NCBI RefSeq assembly: GCF_030316135.1
Contig: NZ_CP128185.1
Location: 2,046,001-2,110,000, forward strand
Length of the DNA: 64,000 bases
Source of the DNA: Aliiglaciecola sp. LCG003
Lineage (GTDB): Bacteria > Pseudomonadota > Gammaproteobacteria > Enterobacterales > Alteromonadaceae
Reading direction: 5' to 3'
Of the stretch, positions 1 to 15,605 are shown one piece after another (position 1 is the first letter of the stretch; each line of letters opens with the position of its first letter). Below the pieces are notes generated by a model. The model ran no database searches, was not told the DNA's origin, and worked only from the letters and a program-made list of their open reading frames with translations. The position numbers and the translations under genes are program-made.

Positions 1-1
1 C

Positions 2-958
2 ACGACCCTAAATTTTTCGGGCCCGGTGATGCCAAGTGAAGCCACGGCTCAACGTTTTGTGGTGCAAAAATCTACTGCGGCTGCTTTAAACTTTGCAGCT
101 TCCATGGCAGTTGCCAGTCGAATTTATGACGACTTTGAGCAATTTGCCGGGCATGCCAATGATTATAGACGCGCGGCTGAGTCGGCGTGGCAGTGGGCGC
201 AAGCCAACCCGTCGATCGCTTATATGCAGCCGAATGACGTGTTAACCGGTGAATATGGGGATACGGAATTTGACGACGAATTCGCTTGGGCAGCCGCTGA
301 GCTTTACCTTCTAACAACTGACGATAAGTATCTGCAGCAATTCAAGCAACTGAATGTCATGCCTATGGTGCCTGATTGGTCAAATAGTGCGGCGTTGGGT
401 TATATTTCATTATTAAATAACGCTAAAACAACCTTGAGTAATGAAGATTACAATCAATTCTATGCAAGATATCTTTCTTTGGCAGATTCAATATTAAAAC
501 AACACCAAGAGTCTGCTTATGCTGTGGCGATGGAGAATTCAGACTTTGTTTGGGGCAGTAATGGAGTGGCGTTAAATAAGGCCTTTATCTTGTTACAAGC
601 TCAACGCTTGTCTAAAAATGATAAATATAAATCGGCAGTTACGGGTTTAGTTGATTATGTTTTAGGGCGTAACCCAACAGGTTATTCTTACTTAACGGGT
701 TTTGGTGCAAAAACACCGCTGGATATCCACCATCGACAATCCCACGCCGATAATATAAAGGATCCCGTGCCTGGATTTGTTGCCGGAGGTGCTCAACCAG
801 GTCAACAAGATAAATGCAACTATCCGTCACAATTACCAGCCAAATCATACCTAGATGACTGGTGTAGCTATGCATCCAATGAAGTCACGATTAATTGGAA
901 TGCCCCTTTAGTGTATGTTTTGGCAAGCTTACATACCATGCAGTATGACTCTAAATAA
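2..958 (+). CDS. Glycoside hydrolase family 9 endoglucanase, C-terminal part (5' end outside window)
   Basis: C-terminal half of a GH9 (cellulase E-type) catalytic domain, which hydrolyses beta-1,4-glucan by inversion. The frame is open from base 2 without a stop, and the residues before the first possible start (NFSGPV) already match the family, so the gene is cut by the window edge and the GTG at 26 is not a true start. Both GH9 signatures are present: the G-x-N...TP..IHHR block near nucleotides 664-736, and the C-terminal D-x4-Y-x3-E...NWNAP block, where the Glu at 881-883 is the expected proton donor. The protein ends soon after this block, so no C-terminal binding module follows. Substrate could be cellulose, mixed-linkage glucan or cello-oligosaccharide. 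Family call is firm; exact substrate is not. Confidence 0.9.
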   Translation, partial: TTLNFSGPVMPSEATAQRFVVQKSTAAALNFAASMAVASRIYDDFEQFAGHANDYRRAAESAWQWAQANPSIAYMQPNDVLTGEYGDTEFDDEFAWAAAELYLLTTDDKYLQQFKQLNVMPMVPDWSNSAALGYISLLNNAKTTLSNEDYNQFYARYLSLADSILKQHQESAYAVAMENSDFVWGSNGVALNKAFILLQAQRLSKNDKYKSAVTGLVDYVLGRNPTGYSYLTGFGAKTPLDIHHRQSHADNIKDPVPGFVAGGAQPGQQDKCNYPSQLPAKSYLDDWCSYASNEVTINWNAPLVYVLASLHTMQYDSK

Positions 959-1464
959 GCATAAAAATTAGTGATTCTTAGTGAGAAAATTGTACTCTTT
1001 AATCCCCTTAGCTCGGCCCTGAGGACTCTTCATTAGTCGATAAAGCACTATCATGCACTGTGGGTAAACCTGAAATGGCAATACACAAAAGTATGCTATT
1101 CATCTAAGGGACTTTGAATCCCAATATTGGTGTGTAAGGGACACAATCAAGACACCCTTAATAAATTAATTTACTGGCTATTTTATTTTAACTCCGTGCT
1201 TTAATAGAACATTGACTATACTGTCTTAGGCCGAATTAGAATGTAAAGGGTTAGGGGGCTTAGCTATTGCTCTCAACAGCTCAGGTTATATTGCTCCTTA
1301 CTAGGCCGTCCAAAGATCGTAAATTGCGAGCTGCGGTGCAGCACCGTCTTAATTGCATATATTGGCTAGCCAAGGGTGAAATATAAACATCTTACACTCT
1401 CAGAATTGTATATCTTCGCAACTTGCATTTTCCTTATTTACTCTTTAACTACGGATTGGGAAAG
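959..1464. other. Intergenic region between GH9 gene and cyclic-di-GMP gene
   Basis: About 500 bases without a convincing gene. A sigma-70-like pair is possible at roughly 1212-1242 (TTGACT, then TAGAAT, with a long 19-base spacer) and could drive the downstream GGDEF-EAL gene. A short GC-rich inverted repeat (GGTGC/GCACC) lies around 1333-1346. No T-rich intrinsic terminator for the GH9 gene is evident. Confidence 0.4.
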
Positions 1465-3576
1465 ATGAAGTCTGAGCTGGATAATGCTAAAACACACTTA
1501 AATAAATTAGGTCAATCGCCAGATGATATAGAGATGTATCTCAAGGCTGTTTTCAATGATATAGGAGACCCAATATTCGTAAAGGACCACGAATGCAGGT
1601 TGATAATTGTCAATGACGCTTTTTGCAGCATTTTCGGTCTACCCAGGAAGGATATCATTGGTAAAACCCTGGCCGAAAAAGTTCCGCCTGAAGAGCGTGA
1701 CCACTTTTTATCTATTGATAGAGAGGTATTATCTAAAGGCAAAGAAATTTTATGCGAAGAGACTCTCACTACCAGTGGGGTGCAGACCAAAACAATTTTG
1801 ACCCGAAAAAACAGATTCGTAGATAGCAACGGAAATTACTTTCTGGTGGGGATAATCCATGATATTACCCCTCGCAAGCAAATCGAAGAAAGATTAAAAC
1901 GAGCAGCCAGTGTCGTCAGTCATGCACATGAAGGTATCATGATCACCGATTCCACAGCTACTATTATAGAGGTCAATCAGAGTTTTAGCCGTATTACTGG
2001 GTATGCTGAAGAAGAAGTGCTGGGTCAAAATCCAAGAATTCTTCAATCTGGTCGTCAATCAGCTGAATTTTACGGAGAAATGTGGCGTACCATCCTAGCA
2101 AAAGGCTATTGGCGTGGTGAGATTTGGAATCGTCGTAAAAATGGTGAGGTATACCCTGAAATGCTGACTATTAGTGCGGTGAAGAATACCAATGGACAGG
2201 TACAGCATTACATTTCACTATCAACCGATATTACACCAATGAAGGCGTATCAAGGACGGCTGGAGCGAATTGCCCATTTCGATCCCCTGACCAATCTCCC
2301 CAATCGCGTATTACTTGCAGACCGGCTAAGCCAGGCCATGGTGCAATGCCAACGACGTCAATTATCACTGGCAGTTGCATTTATGGACTTAGATGGCTTT
2401 AAAACCATAAATGACAGTCTTGGTCACAATGTTGGCGATAAGTTGCTCATTACCGTGTCTCAGCGTATGAAAGAAGCATTGCGAGAAGGTGATACATTAG
2501 CTCGAATAGGTGGTGATGAATTTATCGCAGTAATGGTTGATTTAGAAAAGATTGAAGATGGTGAGCTTGTTTTAAAGCGCCTACTCAAAGCTGTGTCTGA
2601 ACCCGTTTCCGTGGGTGATGCAGTAATGCAAGTTTCAGCCAGTATTGGTGTCACCCTTTATCCACAGGATGGAGTAGATGCAGACCAATTGATGCGACAT
2701 GCTGACCAAGCTATGTACGTTGCTAAACAAGCCGGTAAAAACCGTTTCCACCTTTTTGATACTGCACAAGATACAGCGTTCAAGACGCAGTTGGAAAGTA
2801 TTGAAAATGTAAGCTTGGCTTTGGCTAAGGGAGAGTTTGTCTTGCACTTTCAACCAAAGGTCAATATGCGTACAGGCACAGTAGTAGGCGTTGAAGCATT
2901 AATTCGTTGGCAGCACCCAATCAATGGTTTAGTGCCGCCTATTGAGTTCTTACCTGTGATAGAGGGGCATTTGATTAGTTTAAAACTGGGGGAATGGGTT
3001 ATCGACACGGCTTTGCAGCAAATTATTAAATGGAGAAGTGTGGGGGTAGACCTGCCGATTAGTGTTAACATTAGTGCATATCAGTTACAACAAAACAATT
3101 TCACTGCTCAATTAGCAGCAATATTAGCACTCAATCCTGAGGTCAATCCAAACTGCTTAGAATTGGAAATTTTAGAAACAACCGCATTACATGACACCTG
3201 CCAAGTGTCTACTACTATGAATGCATGCCATGATTTGGGTGTGCGTTTCGCTATAGACGACTTTGGTACAGGGTATTCTTCACTTACTTATCTTAAGCGC
3301 TTACCAGCGTACTTAATCAAGATTGACCAAAGCTTCGTGCGAGACATGCTACAAGATGATGATGATCTGGCCATCGTTGAGGGGGTAGTTGGATTGACCA
3401 AAGCTTTCCAGCGTAAAGTGATTGCAGAAGGAGTCGAATCCATCGAACATGGTGTTGCATTATTAAAACTAGGTTGTGAGTTGGCCCAAGGTTATGGGAT
3501 CGCTCGACCGATGCCGGCCGCTGACCTTCCTGAATGGCTTGCTAACTGGAAAGCGGATGATTCTTGGCTTATCTGA
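1465..3576 (+). CDS. PAS-PAS-GGDEF-EAL cyclic-di-GMP signalling protein
   Basis: Bifunctional-type diguanylate cyclase/phosphodiesterase of about 703 residues. There are two N-terminal PAS sensor domains (about 20-135 and 145-260). A GGDEF domain follows with an intact GGDEF motif at residues 349-353 and an RxxD inhibitory site at 340-343. The C-terminal EAL domain has an intact EAL motif at 477-479 and a DDFGTGYSS segment. Both catalytic motifs look functional, so either making or degrading c-di-GMP is possible. No membrane segment or signal peptide is visible, so it should be cytosolic. The frame opens earlier at a TTG (1423), but the ATG at 1465, just behind a purine-rich stretch, gives the better start. 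It stands alone, with no partner gene in the same direction. Confidence 0.9.
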   Translation: MKSELDNAKTHLNKLGQSPDDIEMYLKAVFNDIGDPIFVKDHECRLIIVNDAFCSIFGLPRKDIIGKTLAEKVPPEERDHFLSIDREVLSKGKEILCEETLTTSGVQTKTILTRKNRFVDSNGNYFLVGIIHDITPRKQIEERLKRAASVVSHAHEGIMITDSTATIIEVNQSFSRITGYAEEEVLGQNPRILQSGRQSAEFYGEMWRTILAKGYWRGEIWNRRKNGEVYPEMLTISAVKNTNGQVQHYISLSTDITPMKAYQGRLERIAHFDPLTNLPNRVLLADRLSQAMVQCQRRQLSLAVAFMDLDGFKTINDSLGHNVGDKLLITVSQRMKEALREGDTLARIGGDEFIAVMVDLEKIEDGELVLKRLLKAVSEPVSVGDAVMQVSASIGVTLYPQDGVDADQLMRHADQAMYVAKQAGKNRFHLFDTAQDTAFKTQLESIENVSLALAKGEFVLHFQPKVNMRTGTVVGVEALIRWQHPINGLVPPIEFLPVIEGHLISLKLGEWVIDTALQQIIKWRSVGVDLPISVNISAYQLQQNNFTAQLAAILALNPEVNPNCLELEILETTALHDTCQVSTTMNACHDLGVRFAIDDFGTGYSSLTYLKRLPAYLIKIDQSFVRDMLQDDDDLAIVEGVVGLTKAFQRKVIAEGVESIEHGVALLKLGCELAQGYGIARPMPAADLPEWLANWKADDSWLI

Positions 3577-3901
3577 TATAGGTATTCCCCATTAATTAAG
3601 CGCCACTCTAACCTTACTGCTGTTAATTCCGTTCACAAGTACTGTTATCAAGACAACAATTTAAAGGTAATGGCTTCTGTTTTTAGATCATTTTGTCGAC
3701 TGGCTTTAAATGTTAATAACATTGAATTCTAACGTGTTATTAAATATTCAACAAAAACAATTGGGTAACTTTGAAATATAGCTGTAACTATCTGACTTAC
3801 AAGTCGTTTACCTTTGTGATACAGCATTCATACAGACACTAACGAAAATTTCATGCATAACTTTAAACACCTAAGAATGGTCTTAGGGTTTGGAGAATAC
3901 T
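3577..3901. other. Intergenic region with hairpin before small secreted protein gene
   Basis: AT-rich spacer. A perfect 7-bp hairpin (CCTAAGA, loop ATGG, TCTTAGG) at 3870-3887 sits directly in front of the ribosome binding site GGAG (3892-3895) of the next gene and would lie in its 5' untranslated region. An 8-bp inverted repeat (TAATAACA/TGTTATTA) lies around 3713-3741. No gene seen. Confidence 0.4.
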
Positions 3902-4219
3902 ATGAAAAAGCTAATCGCAATATTACTTATGTGTGCTTGTGCACAGGTTAATGCGGGTTTAAAAGAGTCGCTAGAGTATCGGTTCGAAGGTGACGTTTTT
4001 TATGCGGGTTATTGCCAAGCTGTACTGGAGGACAATGTTAAATTAATGGAATCCAAAATCCGCTCCCACGTAGGGAAAGTCGCATCTACCCCCAAAGCCG
4101 TAACAAAAGCTATTTTGGCCCACAACGGCATTACTTGTGATGGGATGGATCTGGTTACATTTTCAAAACAGCGTCATGCCACAGAAATTTATGCTTATTT
4201 GCGCGCTAAAAATGACTAG
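3902..4219 (+). CDS. Small secreted protein resembling DUF3718
   Basis: Encodes 105 residues with a clear signal peptide: MKK, a hydrophobic core, and a likely cut after VNA near residue 18. The mature part of about 87 residues contains two cysteines (in GYCQA and ITCDG) that could form a periplasmic disulfide. It resembles the DUF3718 proteins common in Alteromonas/Shewanella-type bacteria; their function is unknown. The frame opens at a TTG at 3890, but the ATG at 3902 is preceded by GGAG and starts the signal peptide, so it is preferred. A strong terminator follows, making this a single-gene transcript. The DUF assignment is from memory of the family. Confidence 0.75.
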   Translation: MKKLIAILLMCACAQVNAGLKESLEYRFEGDVFYAGYCQAVLEDNVKLMESKIRSHVGKVASTPKAVTKAILAHNGITCDGMDLVTFSKQRHATEIYAYLRAKND

Positions 4220-4558: not shown

Positions 4559-5170
4559 ATGCCAGAACTAGCAGATAAAATGAAAGTGTTGCTGATAGAT
4601 GTCGATTTGGCCAAGATTCAGGACGTGTCGGATGCCTTGTGCGACTCTAGATATAGTATTGCACAGCATCAGGGGCAGCCGGCGTCCCTATTGAAAATGG
4701 TGGATAGTCTACAACCGGATATTATTGTTATTGATATTGAAAGCCCTAGTCGAGATATGTTGGAGAGCTTATCAGCCATTTCGAACTTTAACCCAAAACC
4801 CGTTGTCATGTTTAGTACGCAAAATGACACTGAGGTTATTAACCAATCAATTCAATCTGGCGTGAGTGCCTATGTAGTCGGGGATGTGGAACCTAGTCGT
4901 GTTAAACCTATTTTGGATGCGGCTGTCGCTCGGTTTACCCAGTTTCATCAGATGAAAAATCAGTTATATGACACTCAGCAGCAACTCAACGCTAAAGAAA
5001 TAGTTGATAAGGCGAAGCGTGCCTTAATCAAACAGAAATCATTGACGGAAGAGCAAGCTTTTCACTCAATGCGCAAGACTGCGATGGACTCTGGCCAATG
5101 CATAGAAGATGTAGCTAAAACCGTATTGAGCATATTAAACAATCTAGATACAGGAGCGAGAAGTCGATGA
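4559..5170 (+). CDS. nasT: ANTAR-domain response regulator NasT
   Basis: Transcription antiterminator of about 203 residues. An N-terminal receiver-like domain carries the ID-IES segment at the usual phospho-acceptor position. The C-terminal ANTAR RNA-binding domain (about 140-200) shows the KAKxxLxxxxxxTEEQAFxxMRKxAM pattern. In characterised NasS-NasT pairs, NasS holds NasT inactive until nitrate or nitrite binds NasS; free NasT then binds a two-hairpin RNA leader and prevents termination ahead of nitrate-assimilation genes. It overlaps nasS by four bases, and a matching leader lies just beyond nasS. The start at 4559 lacks a strong Shine-Dalgarno; the ATG at 4580 is an alternative. Confidence 0.88.
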   Translation: MPELADKMKVLLIDVDLAKIQDVSDALCDSRYSIAQHQGQPASLLKMVDSLQPDIIVIDIESPSRDMLESLSAISNFNPKPVVMFSTQNDTEVINQSIQSGVSAYVVGDVEPSRVKPILDAAVARFTQFHQMKNQLYDTQQQLNAKEIVDKAKRALIKQKSLTEEQAFHSMRKTAMDSGQCIEDVAKTVLSILNNLDTGARSR

Positions 5171-6312
5171 TTTTGGAAACCACAGATATTAATTTGGGGT
5201 TTATTCCTCTAACTGATTCTGCCCCACTGATTGTAGCCAAAGAATTTGGTTTTTTTGCAGAATGGGGCTTAAATGTGAATTTATTAAAGCAGAACTCCTG
5301 GGCCACCTTACGAGATAAATTACACGCTGGCTTACTTGACGCTGCACAAATGCTGGCACCTATGCCGATTGCGAGTACCTTGGGGCTTGGTGTTGCGCCA
5401 ACACCGGTAATCACCCCTTTGATCCTTAGCTTAAATGGCAATGCAATAACACTATCTGAATCCTTACATTTAGAAATATTACAAGCCAATAAAATATCCC
5501 ATATTACCTTGCCGATGGCAGCTTATTTATTGCAAGAGGTTGTTGCAAAACGCAAAGAAACGGGGACCGCTAAATTAAGTTTTGCAAATGTATTTCCTTA
5601 TAGTTGTCACTATTATCAATTGAGAGATTGGCTAAAATCAGGTCATATCAGTGACGATGATGTAGATATTGTTGTGGTCCCGCCAGTCAGTATGGTTAAT
5701 TTTATGGAAGCCGGTGAAATTGATGGTTTTTGTGTTGGCGGCCCCTGGAATGCAAAAGCCGTGCGTTCAGGCATTGGTATAACAGCGTTAACATCTTTTG
5801 ATATCTGGCAAGACTCCCCAGAAAAAGTATTAGGGTTACTTGAGTCTTACTATACCCAAAATCCTAATACAGTTTTGGCGCTATGCGCGGCTCTTAAACA
5901 AGCTTGTAGTTGGCTAGAAACCATACCTAATTGTTTTGAGGCTGCTCGAGTGTTAAGCAAGAGCCGTTACCTTGATGCACCGCTGGATGTTATCGCACCT
6001 TCGCTATTAGGAAGCTGTCTGACTCACAAATCCACAGGCCCACGCAGTATACCTTCATATAATCAATTTTCTGCTCGGCATAATGGTTCGATTAATCAGC
6101 CAGAGCTAGTTCGTGGTGAATGGTTATTAAAGCAAATGCATAATGCAGGACAGATAGATATCAGTACCATTCAGCCCTCCTTTGTTTCAAAAGTTTACCG
6201 GCCCGATATTTATCAACAAATGAAGAAGGTGTTGGACCAACATGCGTTAACTAACATCGATGAGGCTTTGAGGCACTTTGATGGTGCCCGTTTGCACCGT
6301 GTTATATCCTGA
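5167..6312 (+). CDS. nasS: Nitrate/nitrite sensor NasS (CmpA/NrtA-type periplasmic-binding fold)
   Basis: 381-residue protein of the NrtA/CmpA solute-binding family. It starts directly with the binding fold (LGFIPLTDSAPLIVAKEFGFF) and has no signal peptide, as expected for the cytosolic sensor NasS rather than an ABC-transporter binding protein. The segments VVVPPVSMVNFMEAGEIDGFCVGGPWNAKAV are typical of the nitrate/bicarbonate-binding group. Its ATG overlaps the nasT stop (ATGA), so the two are translationally coupled and probably made in fixed ratio. No nitrate permease genes adjoin it, which supports a sensory role. Confidence 0.88.
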   Translation: MILETTDINLGFIPLTDSAPLIVAKEFGFFAEWGLNVNLLKQNSWATLRDKLHAGLLDAAQMLAPMPIASTLGLGVAPTPVITPLILSLNGNAITLSESLHLEILQANKISHITLPMAAYLLQEVVAKRKETGTAKLSFANVFPYSCHYYQLRDWLKSGHISDDDVDIVVVPPVSMVNFMEAGEIDGFCVGGPWNAKAVRSGIGITALTSFDIWQDSPEKVLGLLESYYTQNPNTVLALCAALKQACSWLETIPNCFEAARVLSKSRYLDAPLDVIAPSLLGSCLTHKSTGPRSIPSYNQFSARHNGSINQPELVRGEWLLKQMHNAGQIDISTIQPSFVSKVYRPDIYQQMKKVLDQHALTNIDEALRHFDGARLHRVIS

Positions 6313-6373
6313 TAAATCATTAAAACATAATGTCATATTTATAAATTATTGAATTTAATGGATAAATATTTCA

Positions 6374-6389
6374 TGGCGTTCTTTCTGCT
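6374..6389 (+). promoter_or_regulatory. Candidate sigma-54 promoter ahead of the nas leader
   Basis: TGGC at 6374-6377 and TGCT at 6386-6389 give the -24 GG and -12 GC dinucleotides at the exact sigma-54 spacing. Nitrate-assimilation operons in enterics are often transcribed by sigma-54 RNA polymerase under NtrC. Transcription would begin near 6400, about 100 bases before the leader hairpins. The central bases deviate from consensus and no clear NtrC site was found, so this is tentative. Confidence 0.5.
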
Positions 6390-6497
6390 TAGGTAGTTTT
6401 GGGATAGATACCTGTGGCTAGGTCACCTACTATTTAACACCAAGGTCTAACGACTTTTATATTTACACCAGCCAAAAGAAAAATAAGACCTATTTAG

Positions 6498-6579
6498 TTA
6501 ACGGCAGTTAAGCTGTTAATTGTTGGCAATGTCGCCTACACAATTTTTAGTGATCTGAAGTTTGTGTGGGCTTTTTTTT
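6498..6579 (+). promoter_or_regulatory. NasT (ANTAR)-type antitermination leader with overlapping terminator
   Basis: Three elements in order. P1: 8-bp stem 6498-6505/6512-6519 around a hexaloop AGTTAA. P2: stem 6521-6527/6534-6540 with one T-T mismatch around a hexaloop AATGTC, which has A at position 1 and G at position 4, the hallmark of ANTAR targets. Terminator: 10-bp stem 6534-6543/6562-6571 followed by eight T (6572-6579). P2 and the terminator share bases 6534-6540, so they exclude each other, as in known antitermination leaders. P1 keeps the loop A1 but has T at position 4. The nasTS genes lie immediately upstream; the gene downstream is broken. Confidence 0.7.
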
Positions 6580-6675
6580 ACCTTTTTTTCATGTGTTTAA
6601 CATGTAAAAAGTGATACCAGTTAAATTATCTAACTGGGCATCATGGTTAAAAATAATCTGCGCTTGGTGAATAGT

Positions 6676-7880
6676 ATGAAAACAATAAAAAATTAGCGGT
6701 AAAGGTCTGTTGTGCGGAGGCGTATTGGGCGTGCTAGCGCTGTGCACAGAAGCCTCTCAAGCATCAGTCGCATTTTACCAAGGCAGTGTAAAACTAGATA
6801 TGCGCTTGCGATATGAGTCAGTTGACCAAGATAATGCCCTTGAAGACGCTGGTGCTTTGACCCTGCGCACCCGATTGGCGTTGGTTAGTCGTTACGTAAG
6901 TGGGATCTCCGCTAGCTAGAGTTTGAAGATAACCGGATTGTAATGGGGCAGGGAAACTACAGTTTGCCTGTAACAAGCTATCAGGCTGGTGAATATTCAG
7001 TAGTCTCCGATCCTGATTTTACCGCGCTCGATCAGGCTTTTATTCGTTATGCTAATGAAAAGCTAGATATTAAATTGGGTCGCCAAGTTATCACCTTTGA
7101 GAATCATCGATTTTTAGGTCACGTTGGATGGCAACAAGTCAGACAGACCTTTGATGGGCTCACGGTGAATTATGCTCCTGTTGAGCAACTTGCTATCAAA
7201 TATGCCTATTTAACAAAACGGAGAATTTTTGCCCAACAAACAGATCTAGATGCTAAAGACCAGGTATTAAACCTTAGTTATTCATCTTCCGTTGGAAATT
7301 TAACCGCTTATAGTTATTTGCTAGAGATTAAACAACAAGCAAAGAACAAATTGGATACCTATAGCCTGCGCTTTTCGGGTCAACAAGCAGTTGAGCAGAT
7401 AACTCTGCTTTACGCCTTTGAATATGCAAGCCAGCATAACCACACAGATATATCTGATTATGATGCTAAGTACTTTTTTGCTGAAACAGGCTTGCTATTC
7501 AATGGAGTCACCGCAAAATTGGCCTATGAAATACTCGGTTCTGACAATGGTGAGTTCGGCTTTCAAACACCTTTGGCAACATTGCATAAATTTAATGGTT
7601 GTTCAGATCAATTTTTAATGACGCCCTCGCAAGGACTAAAGGACATCTATTTAAGTTTATCTATGCCTATATTAGGAGGTACGGCCGTGGTTGTATATCA
7701 TGACTTTTCCGCAGATGACGGTGTTACCGGCGCCGAGGATTTTGCTAGTGAAGTGGATTTGCAGTTCACCCGTAAGTTTAGTTAGCATTATAGCCTGGGT
7801 GTAAAGTGGCCGCTTATTCTGCGCAGGATACAAAAGTAGATACCAACAAACTTTGGTTGTGTTTTGCTGCTTCCTTTTAA
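6676..7880 (+). pseudogene. Alginate-export-family outer-membrane porin, degraded
   Basis: Remnant of a beta-barrel porin of the alginate_export family, about 400 residues when whole. The ATG at 6676 runs into a stop after six codons; the signal peptide continues one frame over, so a frameshift lies in the A-run at 6686-6691. A second break near 6900-6920 moves the reading to the frame of LEFEDNRIVMGQG. The long middle part (to 7785) is intact, then TAG at 7783-7785 interrupts it. The barrel's last strand resumes in another frame (AAYSAQDTK...AASF) and ends at TAA 7878-7880 with a terminal Phe, as expected for an outer-membrane protein. Such porins often sit in nas operons, and this one follows the NasT leader. 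At least four lesions argue for real decay rather than sequencing error. Confidence 0.85.
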
Positions 7881-7931
7881 TCAGACGCTGATATACTTTG
7901 TGTTAACAGCAAAGTCACCATTAGGGCTCAA

Positions 7932-8279
7932 ATGACTATTCAAATTAACTATATCGAAATACCCGTTAAAGATATCCAAAAAAGTAGAGTGTTCTTTAAC
8001 CAAGTGTTTGGCTGGACTTTCGTTGAATATGGCGAGGAATATCTAGCGATTGAAAATGCCGGTGTAGCTGGGGGCCTATATTTGGCTGATACAACGGTTG
8101 CAACTGCTAGCGGTTCAGTTTTGGTGGTGATGTACACAGATAAGTTAGAACAGCTTGGTGAAACGATAGAGCAAAATGGCGGTACGATCACCAAGCCTAT
8201 TTTCTCTTTTCCTGGCGGCCGACGTTTCCACTTTGTGGATTTAAACAATAATGAATATGCTGTCTGGAGTGATAAATAA
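7932..8279 (+). CDS. VOC (glyoxalase/bleomycin resistance) family protein
   Basis: 115 residues with the paired beta-alpha-beta-beta-beta modules of the vicinal oxygen chelate fold: INYIEIPVKDIQKSRVFFNQVFGW at the start and a C-terminal module with FPGGRRFHFVDLNNNEYAVWS. Candidate metal ligands are the Glu in IEIP and the His/Glu of the second half, but His at the first ligand position is absent, so glyoxalase I activity is doubtful. Substrate unknown. A Shine-Dalgarno-like AGGG (7922-7925) precedes the ATG. It stands alone between a porin pseudogene and the convergent EF-hand genes. Confidence 0.8.
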   Translation: MTIQINYIEIPVKDIQKSRVFFNQVFGWTFVEYGEEYLAIENAGVAGGLYLADTTVATASGSVLVVMYTDKLEQLGETIEQNGGTITKPIFSFPGGRRFHFVDLNNNEYAVWSDK

Positions 8280-8373: not shown

Positions 8374-8580
8374 TTAATGTTCTGATAACTCACGGGGTGT
8401 CAAGTAGCCATCGTGGTCAATATCCAATTCGGCAAAAGCTGCCGCGAGTTCAGGATCACTTGCTACCTCATCTGCACTGATACGACCATCGTTATTCATA
8501 TCCAGCGCCATGAATCTATCATCTTGTGCCAGCGCAGAGGCGGCCAACACTAATGTACTAAATAAGATAAGGGTTTTCAT
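8374..8580 (-). CDS. Secreted EF-hand miniprotein (copy 1)
   Basis: 68 residues: signal peptide of about 18 residues ending ALA, then two EF-hand calcium loops, DMNNDGRISADE and DIDHDGYLTPRE, with the canonical Asp/Asn, Gly and Glu ligand positions. Likely exported to the periplasm and able to bind two Ca2+. GGAG lies just upstream of the ATG. It is the last of three tandem paralogues; the 68-base gap to the next one contains a new ribosome binding site. Biological role unknown. Confidence 0.82.
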   Translation of the reverse strand: MKTLILFSTLVLAASALAQDDRFMALDMNNDGRISADEVASDPELAAAFAELDIDHDGYLTPRELSEH

Positions 8581-8648
8581 ATTGCTTTCTCCAAATAAAG
8601 TGAAAAGCTAAAGTTAGGATTAGGTGTAGATAGGGACAACAGTAGCGC

Positions 8649-8855
8649 TTAATTTGACAATTCTTGAGCCGTTAAATAACCGTCTTTATTTACGTCCAGC
8701 TCAGCAAAAACAGCTGATAGAGTGGGGTCACTTGCCGCTTCCTCAATACTAATACGACCGTCCACATCCAAATCTAAAGCCTTAATAGGATCATTTTGCG
8801 CCATCGCAGGGCTGACATCAAAGGCTAACATACTAATTAAAATTATTTTTTTCAT
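8649..8855 (-). CDS. Secreted EF-hand miniprotein (copy 2)
   Basis: 68 residues, same layout as its neighbours: MKK signal peptide cut near AMA, then EF-hand loops DLDVDGRISIEE and DVNKDGYLTAQE. All liganding positions are acidic or Asn, so both loops look competent for Ca2+. GGAG precedes the ATG. The copies differ at many positions, so the duplication is not recent. Confidence 0.82.
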   Translation of the reverse strand: MKKIILISMLAFDVSPAMAQNDPIKALDLDVDGRISIEEAASDPTLSAVFAELDVNKDGYLTAQELSN

Positions 8856-8933
8856 GACACATTCTCCAAAAGTTTTTGAAAGTGCTCCCTTGCCTTAATA
8901 GCAAGAGAGCAGAATTGATGATGTCGTTACAGA

Positions 8934-9143
8934 TTAGTGCTCAGCTAATTCGCTAGGACTAAGATAACCATCTTTATTAGTGTCTAGTTGAGAGAATTTA
9001 GCCGACAATTCTGCATCACTTACCGCTTCTTCGACGCTTATACGGCCATCCATATCCACATCCAGTGAGGCAATTTTATCTTCCTGTGCCATGACTGAGG
9101 TGGCTGAAAAGATTAGTGTACTAAGTAAAATTAACTTTTTCAT
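8934..9143 (-). CDS. Secreted EF-hand miniprotein (copy 3)
   Basis: 69 residues: signal peptide ending VMA, then EF-hand loops DVDMDGRISVEE and DTNKDGYLSPSE. First gene of the minus-strand triplet, so the promoter for all three probably lies in 9144-9467. GGAGAATC precedes the ATG. As with the other copies, calcium buffering or a periplasmic binding role can be guessed but not shown. Confidence 0.82.
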   Translation of the reverse strand: MKKLILLSTLIFSATSVMAQEDKIASLDVDMDGRISVEEAVSDAELSAKFSQLDTNKDGYLSPSELAEH

Positions 9144-14222: not shown

Positions 14223-14483
14223 TGACTCTATCCTTATCTGTCAATAATGAATTAAACAGTGAGTAGCGGTACTGGTTCAGTTACAACATTTATGCCAATA
14301 GATAAAAAATAGTCCTGTTGCGCCATTTTAGATAGGCCACTAAGGTAAGATTTAAAAAAGATAAGTTTGAGCAAAGGGTTGCCTTTCTTCCGTGATATGA
14401 GGTTAAATGCTTTTGAAACTATTTAAGATTAAGTGTGACTAAATTGAGTAGGAGTATTATCAAATAATTAATTTAAAAATATG
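14223..14483. other. Divergent promoter region between glucosylglycerate and Moco operons
   Basis: AT-rich region that must hold two divergent promoters. No gene seen and no promoter is distinct enough to list. Confidence 0.4.
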
Positions 14484-14605
14484 ACTCCGAGCCTTACCTG
14501 CTAAGTTCTCATATTAGGGAATATGTATGTCTGGCCGCGATGGATATCACATCGCCAGGGTAAATGTAGAAATGTGTTTGCCTCCCGTTACCTGTTCGGC
14601 AATTC
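14484..14605 (+). promoter_or_regulatory. Moco riboswitch (MOCO RNA motif) upstream of moaA
   Basis: The segment carries the conserved blocks of the molybdenum-cofactor RNA motif in order: CTCCGAGCC, TTACCTG, a CATATT/AATATG hairpin, a GCGATG/CATCGC hairpin flanked by CTGGC and CCAG, GGGTAAA paired with TTTGCC, then CTCCCGTTACCTG and a closing TTCGGC that can pair with the initial CCGA. In gammaproteobacteria this motif precedes moaA and lowers its expression when Moco is plentiful. The moaA ribosome binding site lies about 20 bases further on, so translational control is likely. Confidence 0.87.
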
Positions 14606-14636
14606 GGTCGAAGATGGCTTTGGAAAGGTGTTAATT

Positions 14637-15605
14637 GTGTTAGAAGATAAATTTGGCAGACGCTTCCATTATTTGCGCCTGTCCATTACCGATGTATGTA
14701 ATTTTAAGTGCGACTATTGTCTCCCTGATGGTTATCAATGCGAGTCGGAGCGTGATTTTCTGTCGGTGAGTGAAATTAAGCGCATAGTAAATGGTTTTGC
14801 TGCTTTAGGGACGAGTAAAATCCGCATCACAGGAGGAGAGCCATCTCTACGCAAAGACCTGCCTGAGATCATTCGCCTATGTGCTGACACGCAAGGGATT
14901 GCAAAAGTTGCCATCACCACCAATGGTTTCAAGTTAGACCAGCATATTAGTACTTGGGTAGACGCAGGATTAACCGCACTTAATGTGAGTATCGATAGCT
15001 TTGATCCCAGAATGTTTGAGCGAATTACAGGCCACGATAAATTGGACGTTATTTTGTCCGGCATTGAACAAGCGGTTTCCCTTGGTATAGAGGTTAAAGT
15101 CAACGCGGTTTTGATGCGCCAGTATAACGCCAATGATTTATCTCAATTTTTGCAGTGGGTCAAAGATAAACCTGTTACCTTTCGTTTGATTGAGCTGATG
15201 CAAACAGGAGATAACCTTTCGTTCTTTAATCAGAACCATGTAGCTGGGGAGCCGATTAAGCAGCAATTGCTTGCTCAAGGCTGGACCCAAGTAGTAAAAG
15301 ATAAAGCCGCAGGTCCTGCACAAGAATTCTTTCATCCGGACTTTGTTGGAAAGATAGGCTTGATAATGCCCTATGGCAAAGATTTTTGTGCTAGTTGCAA
15401 TAGATTGCGAATAAGTGCCTTAGGTAAATTACATCTTTGCTTGTTTGCCGATCAAGGTCTTGATATTCGACCATTTCTGGACGCTAGCAGCAGTGAGTCA
15501 TTGGTGGCAGCATTAACATCAATGCTAACCAATAAGGAAGCGACCCATTGGTTAGACAAAGGTTATACCGGAGGCACTAAACATTTGGCCATGCTTGGAG
15601 GCTGA
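14637..15605 (+). CDS. moaA: GTP 3',8-cyclase MoaA
   Basis: Radical-SAM enzyme making 3',8-cyclo-GTP, the first step of molybdenum cofactor synthesis. The N-terminal cluster motif is CNFKCDYC; the second cluster uses CASCNRLRISALGKLHLC near the C-terminus; the protein ends in the characteristic Gly-Gly. The frame is open from 14523, but that part is the riboswitch. GTG at 14637 has GGAAAGG nine bases upstream and gives the normal 322-residue protein beginning LEDKFGRRFHYLRLSI. Its stop overlaps the mobA start by one base. Confidence 0.95.
   Translation: MLEDKFGRRFHYLRLSITDVCNFKCDYCLPDGYQCESERDFLSVSEIKRIVNGFAALGTSKIRITGGEPSLRKDLPEIIRLCADTQGIAKVAITTNGFKLDQHISTWVDAGLTALNVSIDSFDPRMFERITGHDKLDVILSGIEQAVSLGIEVKVNAVLMRQYNANDLSQFLQWVKDKPVTFRLIELMQTGDNLSFFNQNHVAGEPIKQQLLAQGWTQVVKDKAAGPAQEFFHPDFVGKIGLIMPYGKDFCASCNRLRISALGKLHLCLFADQGLDIRPFLDASSSESLVAALTSMLTNKEATHWLDKGYTGGTKHLAMLGG

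Follow-up and report, generated by a model that had tools for sequence, protein, structure and literature searches.

Nitrate assimilation in Aliiglaciecola sp. LCG003: a NasS-NasT locus whose structural genes have probably been rearranged rather than lost

Introduction

NasS-NasT antitermination, described in Paracoccus, Azotobacter and Pseudomonas, responds to nitrate or nitrite and combines a REC-ANTAR protein and an NMT1-like sensor, encoded by overlapping genes, with terminator leaders lying 5' of nitrate genes. In Paracoccus, nitrate is reported to be sensed by NasS-NasT, upon which NasT is freed and binds leader RNA (PMC3795266), and c-di-GMP has been reported to weaken NasT (PMC12830290). 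The NalA leader of nirBD in Pseudomonas is a terminator leader 5' of nirB, for which control by sigma54 (and NtrC) has been reported (PMC12830290, PMC3973561). Leaders of eut and nas genes carry the ANTAR dual-hexaloop motif, in which G4 is described as indispensable if EutV is to antiterminate efficiently, with one hexaloop as the minimal motif; the sequestering RNAs Rli55 and EutX are described in the same source (PMC8934654).

The nasT-nasS locus of Aliiglaciecola sp. LCG003 resembles these systems in its overlapping regulator genes and in its terminator leaders, one of them 5' of nirB as in NalA. It differs from the described NasS-NasT systems in having three leaders at three places, with nrtABC about 1.83 Mb away and one leader serving a dead porin gene, and from NalA in that the sigma54 site, clear at nrtA, is weak at the porin and unconvincing at nirB. 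The leader beside nasS shares with the dual-hexaloop motif a P2 with A1 and G4 and an arm overlapping the terminator, whereas its P1 lacks G4. Like Rli55 and EutX it is leader-like with no working gene behind it; in contrast to those RNAs, the standalone RNAs that we describe from relatives lack G4 in P2. Among the titles and abstract openings covered, no report was found of a standalone NasT-leader RNA or of the nitrate genes of this clade. We conclude that the locus very probably holds the regulators of a nitrate-assimilation regulon that is still complete, its structural genes having been rearranged without being lost.

Regulators and Gene Neighborhood

The genome (G000; 4.41 Mb) is one contig, and the window is a stretch of 64,000 nucleotides within it (G000:C1:2046001-2110000), whose coordinates are used below unless another locus is named. 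The features around the regulators are as follows:

3890..4219, + strand: small ORF, with counterparts of 40-47% identity 5' of nasT or nasS in several relatives
4559..5170, + strand: nasT, an uninterrupted frame of 203 aa encoding REC (PF00072) and ANTAR (PF03861) domains, Pfam matches above cut-off
5167..6312, + strand: nasS, an open frame of 381 aa encoding an NrtA-like nitrate sensor (PF13379 above cut-off, E 8e-73)
6676..7880, + strand: porin remnant, Alginate_exp family, with three frameshifts and one nonsense codon
7932..8279, + strand: VOC/glyoxalase-family gene (PF00903)
14473-14646: molybdenum-cofactor riboswitch (RF01055, 81.1 bits), 5' of moaA

The original prediction of intact nasT and nasS is borne out by their open frames and expected domains, and nasS overlaps the nasT stop. 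NasS is 77% identical to that of Aliiglaciecola sp. M165 (G004) and 79% to that of G007, and the LCG003 branch of nasS measures 0.167, or 4.1% of its tree. NasT is the one ANTAR match genome-wide (17 of 17 candidates scored). Three marks of NasS-NasT membership are present, namely a REC+ANTAR protein, an adjacent NrtA-like sensor and nitrate genes behind attenuator leaders, the last on the basis of the leaders of nirB and nrtA (41.0 and 76.9 bits).

A VOC gene does follow the porin remnant, as had been noted. It was dropped as the edge of a deletion, which it need not mark because a VOC gene lies 3' of the porin in seven of 12 mapped genomes (L037, L041, L042, L043, L047, L048 and L080; within 0.7 kb in five), though not in G001, G004, G007, G015 or XY-R5, of which G004 and G007 are near relatives. 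The riboswitch, the only Rfam family found in the window, overlaps a mechanically called ORF start at 14523, and the true moaA start therefore probably lies further in; among four further stretches Rfam found the same riboswitch in L077 and L079 and nothing in L075 or L076. On the - strand at 8374-9143 are three tandem genes for small secreted proteins with stretches that we take to be EF-hand-like, and G002, G004 and G007 carry one or two such small proteins at the matching place.

Location of the Structural Genes

The locus had been read as an operon reduced to its regulators, leader and dead porin, with a search of the genome for nirBD, nasA and further leaders proposed as a check. That search contradicts the reduction. 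It returned a match to nitrite/sulfite reductase at 2.0337 Mb and, at 2.035 Mb, a molybdopterin frame of 942 codons; nirB-nirD-nasA lies at 2.032-2.038 Mb, intact, with the end of nasA 12.8 kb 5' of nasT. The frames of nirB (871 aa), nirD (113 aa) and nasA (931 aa) are open (L076) and stand in a row with genes for a tetrapyrrole methylase and a glycosyltransferase-family-3-like protein. Both nirB and nirD pass their NCBIfam cut-offs; nasA falls below every NCBIfam cut-off (best model formate dehydrogenase alpha, second assimilatory nitrate reductase NasC), and its name thus rests also on its place beside nirBD.

Searching the genome with NasS identified a second, NrtA-like gene at 3.885 Mb. 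There nrtA, nrtB and nrtC are open (466, 330 and 285 aa) at 3.883-3.887 Mb (L075), about 1.83 Mb from nasTS. nrtC scores above the threshold of the NCBIfam nitrate transporter ATP-binding model; nrtA passes no NCBIfam cut-off and is named from its likeness to NasS and the adjoining nrtBC. The intact nirB-nirD-nasA and nrtABC are each preceded by a leader of their own. Of the decay originally proposed, the loss of the porin and of nrtABC from behind the nasS-side leader stands, and the loss of everything downstream does not. The suggestion that NasT now serves a remote target is probably right, the target being nrtABC.

Synteny

By tblastn we mapped 26 loci and the window; 16 loci are named, 13 from Paraglaciecola, one from Aliiglaciecola and two from unclassified Alteromonadaceae. 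The order nirB-nirD-nasA, nasT-nasS, nrtABC, porin occurs in L033 and L043, and likewise in L046 with nasT undetected. nirB-nirD-nasA lies 5' of nasS in nine of the 16 (L033-L036, L038, L039, L043, L044 and L046), the relatives with this arrangement including G004 and G007 of the same genus, and was not in the examined upstream flank of the other seven (L037, L040-L042, L045, L047 and L048). Continuation of the operon into nirBD, expected in the original prediction, fits one mapped relative, G015 (L084), where nirBD-nasA is 3' of the porin. Given this exception and the seven loci, the ancestral order, likely nirB-nirD-nasA, nasT-nasS, leader-nrtABC-porin, is a reading of the maps.

In LCG003 the nirBD-nasA block and nasTS are about 10 kb apart (L076 13747-20000 and window 1-3889), the gap in other mapped loci with both blocks being about 1 kb or less. 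A PAS-GGDEF-EAL protein is encoded near nasT at 1423-3576, inside this insertion. In M165 (L036, L077) the cluster is contiguous and runs nasTS-leader-intact porin, nrtABC being gone from between, and in LCG003 the leader and porin also have no nrtABC between them. The cluster is followed in G007, G004 and G002 by EF-hand-like genes, a glucosylglycerate-type gene set and molybdenum-cofactor genes. Paraglaciecola hydrolytica and P. arctica (L034, L037, L042) have a first leader, 3.6-6.2 kb of other sequence (narK and a kinase gene in L037), a second leader and nrtABC, and several leaders per genome are thus common here. A leader between a kinase gene and nirB was also seen in G001, G003, G006 and G008 (L145, L150, L151, L153).

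The new site of nrtABC in LCG003 and M165 is flanked by an amidohydrolase gene and a small conserved gene. Both neighbors are present in 7/7 other genus genomes and nrtABC is absent from between them, G007 having a different gene there. LCG003 and M165 are sisters with modest (75%) support. That nrtABC reached this site by horizontal transfer and the old copy was lost is a rather doubtful alternative. A leader at both places means that simple cut-and-paste is not enough, and nrtC is most like that of Paraglaciecola MAG_65 (86%) among those compared; however, nrtA and nrtB are closest to those of M165 (85% and 82%), all three genes are 75-84% identical to those of G007, and recombination between leader copies also explains the two leaders.

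A search for the porin family gave 91 places besides LCG003, of which 40 were examined (L171 is cut by a contig end). The porin adjoins nrtC in 30 of the 40. In four, from other genera, a leader lies directly 5' of the porin without nrtABC, as in LCG003 and M165, and the remaining six show neither arrangement. The four leaders are:

L156 6479-6585: after nasS
L157 542-650: the weakest match (32.2 bits)
L160 6530-6632: after narK and a kinase gene
L165 6502-6605: after narK and a kinase gene

Leaders and Their Promoters

The region between nasS and the porin remnant contains the following elements:

6272..6288, + strand: NtrC-like dyad in the 3' end of nasS, matching the consensus at 10 of 12 letters
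6374..6389, + strand: possible sigma54 -24/-12 site, matching the consensus at 8 of 11 letters
6474..6580, + strand: ANTAR-type leader of the porin remnant
6495..6522, + strand: P1 stem-loop of 11 bp, hexaloop AGTTAA with A1 and without G4
6525..6536, + strand: P2, GGC-AATGTC-GCC, with A1 and G4 in the hexaloop and a 3' arm that overlaps the terminator
6534..6579, + strand: intrinsic terminator with a 10-bp stem, a loop with a degenerate GUGUCCU motif and eight T

Leaders were first collected by a pattern (P2 as GGC-ANNGNN-GCC or a near form, plus a T run), a choice that fixes A1 and G4 of P2. The pattern occurs at six places in the genome, three of which are leaders; the others, at 0.43, 1.83 and 2.41 Mb, are not among the matches of the covariance model R1 and were set aside. 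R1 was built from 30 aligned leaders of relatives, none from this genome, and RNAalifold kept only the terminator helix. With 150 of 1137 first-look candidates scored, R1 gave 76.9 bits at nrtA, 57.6 bits (E 1.5e-13) at the porin, where a regulatory leader had been predicted, and 41.0 bits at nirB. Matches below 27 bits were dropped, the best of them (26.1 bits, 3.6487 Mb) being a terminator after another gene.

In the window leader P2 and a terminator after P2 conform to the dual-hexaloop motif, and P1 lacks the A1 and G4 combination. Because G4 is described as needed by EutV (PMC8934654), we call this RNA leader-like in action and not a full dual-hexaloop member. P1 is variable, being canonical in several relatives (e.g., GCTGC-AATGAT-GCAGC) and lacking a clear hexaloop in the leaders of nrtA in LCG003, M165 and G007. 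By analogy with EutV, control by NasT may be weakened in LCG003, as P1 of the window leader has no G4 and the nrtA leader no clear P1 hexaloop. The terminator stem covaries, with seven of 11 pairs changing on both sides and none of 500 shuffles reaching the covariation score, in an alignment in which 18 of 20 rows were chosen for having the loop. That loop, CGUGUCCUG, is nearly unchanged while the stem covaries (L075 16797-16852, - strand, and related leaders); the window leader has lost it, having AGTGATCTG instead of CGTGTCCTG. Rfam searches around six leaders and standalone RNAs gave nothing up to E 0.5, and the built-in terminator pattern did not report the leader terminator.

Scans with the sigma54 consensus found 10/11 letters at nrtA, reached by 0.06% of random stretches, 8/11 at the porin leader (4.7% of random stretches, 2.0% of shuffles) and 7/11 at nirB, which at 12% of random stretches is no better than chance; the nirB leader is also the lowest-scoring by R1. 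Across the nine genus genomes the nrtA promoters score 9-10. An NtrC-like dyad of at least 10 occurs in 1.8% of random 225-nt stretches; the nirB leader of LCG003 likewise has a dyad of 10, and those at the nrtA promoters of LCG003 and M165 and at the standalone RNAs score 7-9, a 9 being reached by 10% of random stretches. Sigma70-like sites were not enriched in the built-in scan (two, against a shuffle mean of 2.3).

Leader-like RNAs in Relatives

Applied to the nine genus genomes, with 150 candidates scored in each and G005 only 59% complete, R1 gave 29 matches at E <= 0.001. Five are at the amidohydrolase site, in G001, G003, G005, G006 and G008, which hold standalone sigma54-type RNAs with a leader-like terminator:

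L122 8231-8338, + strand
L123 4053-4157, - strand
L124 3884-3988, - strand
L126 4369-4473, - strand
L120 4852-4950, - strand

The five read toward the end of the amidohydrolase gene and have sigma54 sites of 10 letters, and in the five genomes no frame of at least 100 aa starts within 450 nt behind them. Their 5' part is shared with the nrtA leader of M165 and, less clearly, of LCG003, and the terminator run TTCGTGTCCTGT is identical in the standalone RNAs and both of these nrtA leaders. P2 is without G4, without a closed stem, or absent. The loop GTGTCCT is carried by nine of the 29 matches, exactly one per genome in all nine genus members: the five standalone RNAs, the nrtA leaders at the new site (G000, G004) and those beside nasS (G002, G007). 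In the wider family one loop per genome is not a simple rule, as it is found in 10 and missing in 20 of 30 distinct nrtA leaders, a count that leaves out seven nirB matches and to which L182, L189, L191 and L192, with nrtA, contribute no R1 match; it also occurs in narK leaders, and twice each in P. hydrolytica and P. arctica BSs20135, which lie outside the genus.

It is possible, and we suggest it tentatively, that the terminated nrtA-type leader acts as a regulatory small RNA in the genus, with the loop UUCGUGUCCUG as a seed or protein site and nrtABC of LCG003 and M165 standing behind what is apparently the same RNA. The standalone RNA is a novel lead, whereas the finding in the window is ordinary regulon dispersal plus a pseudogene.

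The leader at 6474-6580 could itself be a small RNA, soaking up NasT as Rli55 and EutX do EutV. It keeps a P2 with A1 and G4, a terminator, an NtrC-like dyad and a sigma54-like site although the gene behind it is dead, and leader-like RNAs stand alone in five relatives. We nevertheless find this improbable: the death of the porin seems recent, so that survival of the leader needs no selection, its P1 lacks G4 and its terminator loop is degenerate, and the standalone RNAs of the relatives have no G4 in P2.

Porin Evolution

Three-frame translation found the four predicted lesions at the positions first given for them. The start frame (ATG 6676) stops at 6694-6696, with a frameshift before 6710; the second frame is the N-terminal part and runs to a stop at 6917-6919, with a frameshift near 6905-6920; the third, the main part of 280 aa, is ended by a nonsense TAG at 7783-7785; and after a last frameshift near 7806-7812 the reading reaches a stop at 7878-7880, in sequence similar to where the intact M165 porin ends. 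The original prediction would have fallen had relatives without reductases shared this broken porin, and in 8/8 other genus members the frame is intact (406-441 aa, no internal stop). A genome search with the main frame found no second porin copy.

The LCG003 porin shares 49-54% identity with those of the 11 relatives compared and the M165 porin 60-74% with the other ten, P. hydrolytica being dropped because its porin is cut by the locus edge. On the 12-taxon tree of nasS plus nrtABC the LCG003 branch measures 0.88 (23% of the tree) for the porin, compared with 0.174 (8.6%) for nrtA, 0.19 (5.5%) for nrtB and 0.29 (7.6%) for nrtC, making the porin branch three to five times that of its neighbors. 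Origin of the porin from a donor outside the genus was discarded: the best of 295 family genomes reaches 57% (G187) and the genus 52-53%, and no close donor was seen. Neutral simulation to the same distance, started from a relative's porin, gave a median of five stops in 280 codons and at most one in 10 of 200 runs; no stop is seen inside the 280-aa frame, which was picked between stops and so favors a low count, and the whole remnant has one nonsense substitution. Since more stops are expected than are seen, the porin probably changed fast mostly before its death, while still read in frame, and died recently. A history of decay following the loss of nrtABC is thus not a simple sequence.

Assembly error is an unlikely source of the lesions, because they include a substitution, the porin branch is long and the other compared genes are open. 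One lesion does sit at an A run, the main frame is open over 280 codons and the simulation expects more stops, all of which would suit a functional porin misread by the assembly. Against this, four lesions including a nonsense substitution fall within 1.2 kb, each of the other genes compared at the three loci is one open frame with matches in relatives over most of its length, and the LCG003 branch is unusually long; a functional porin in LCG003 is very unlikely. Decay of the nitrate pathway as a whole, with the regulators left only because the loss is recent, would account for the broken porin and the missing nrtABC behind its leader but is scarcely tenable when nirBD-nasA and nrtABC are open and have leaders and the LCG003 branches of nrtA, nrtB and nrtC are just 5.5-8.6% of their trees.

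Discussion

Gene content and places, leaders, lesions and synteny are direct observations, and from them we infer the following scheme. Without nitrate, NasS would hold NasT; with nitrate, NasT would be freed, bind the leader RNAs and favor the P2 hexaloop hairpin over the overlapping terminator, giving read-through. In the line of LCG003 and M165, nrtABC would have come to stand at the distant site behind a leader, while the porin, which may have carried nitrate, stayed behind the nasS-side leader. In LCG003, about 10 kb would also have been inserted between nirBD-nasA and nasTS, and the porin would then have evolved fast and recently died. With three strong leaders in the genome and a single ANTAR match, action of NasT on nrtABC in trans is most likely; NasT would thus serve two useful leaders, those of nirB and nrtA, and act uselessly on that of the porin. 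That one former operon now has two leaders may be best explained if the new site already held a related RNA and nrtABC came to stand behind it, perhaps through recombination of similar leaders.

The apparent loss of a pathway is thus corrected to the dispersal of a regulon. This suggests that, with an RNA-binding antiterminator, an operon can sit far from its regulator provided that a leader either travels along or is already waiting where the operon arrives. Should the standalone RNA prove functional, the locus would be one whose interchangeable states are an attenuator leader and a sigma54 small RNA.
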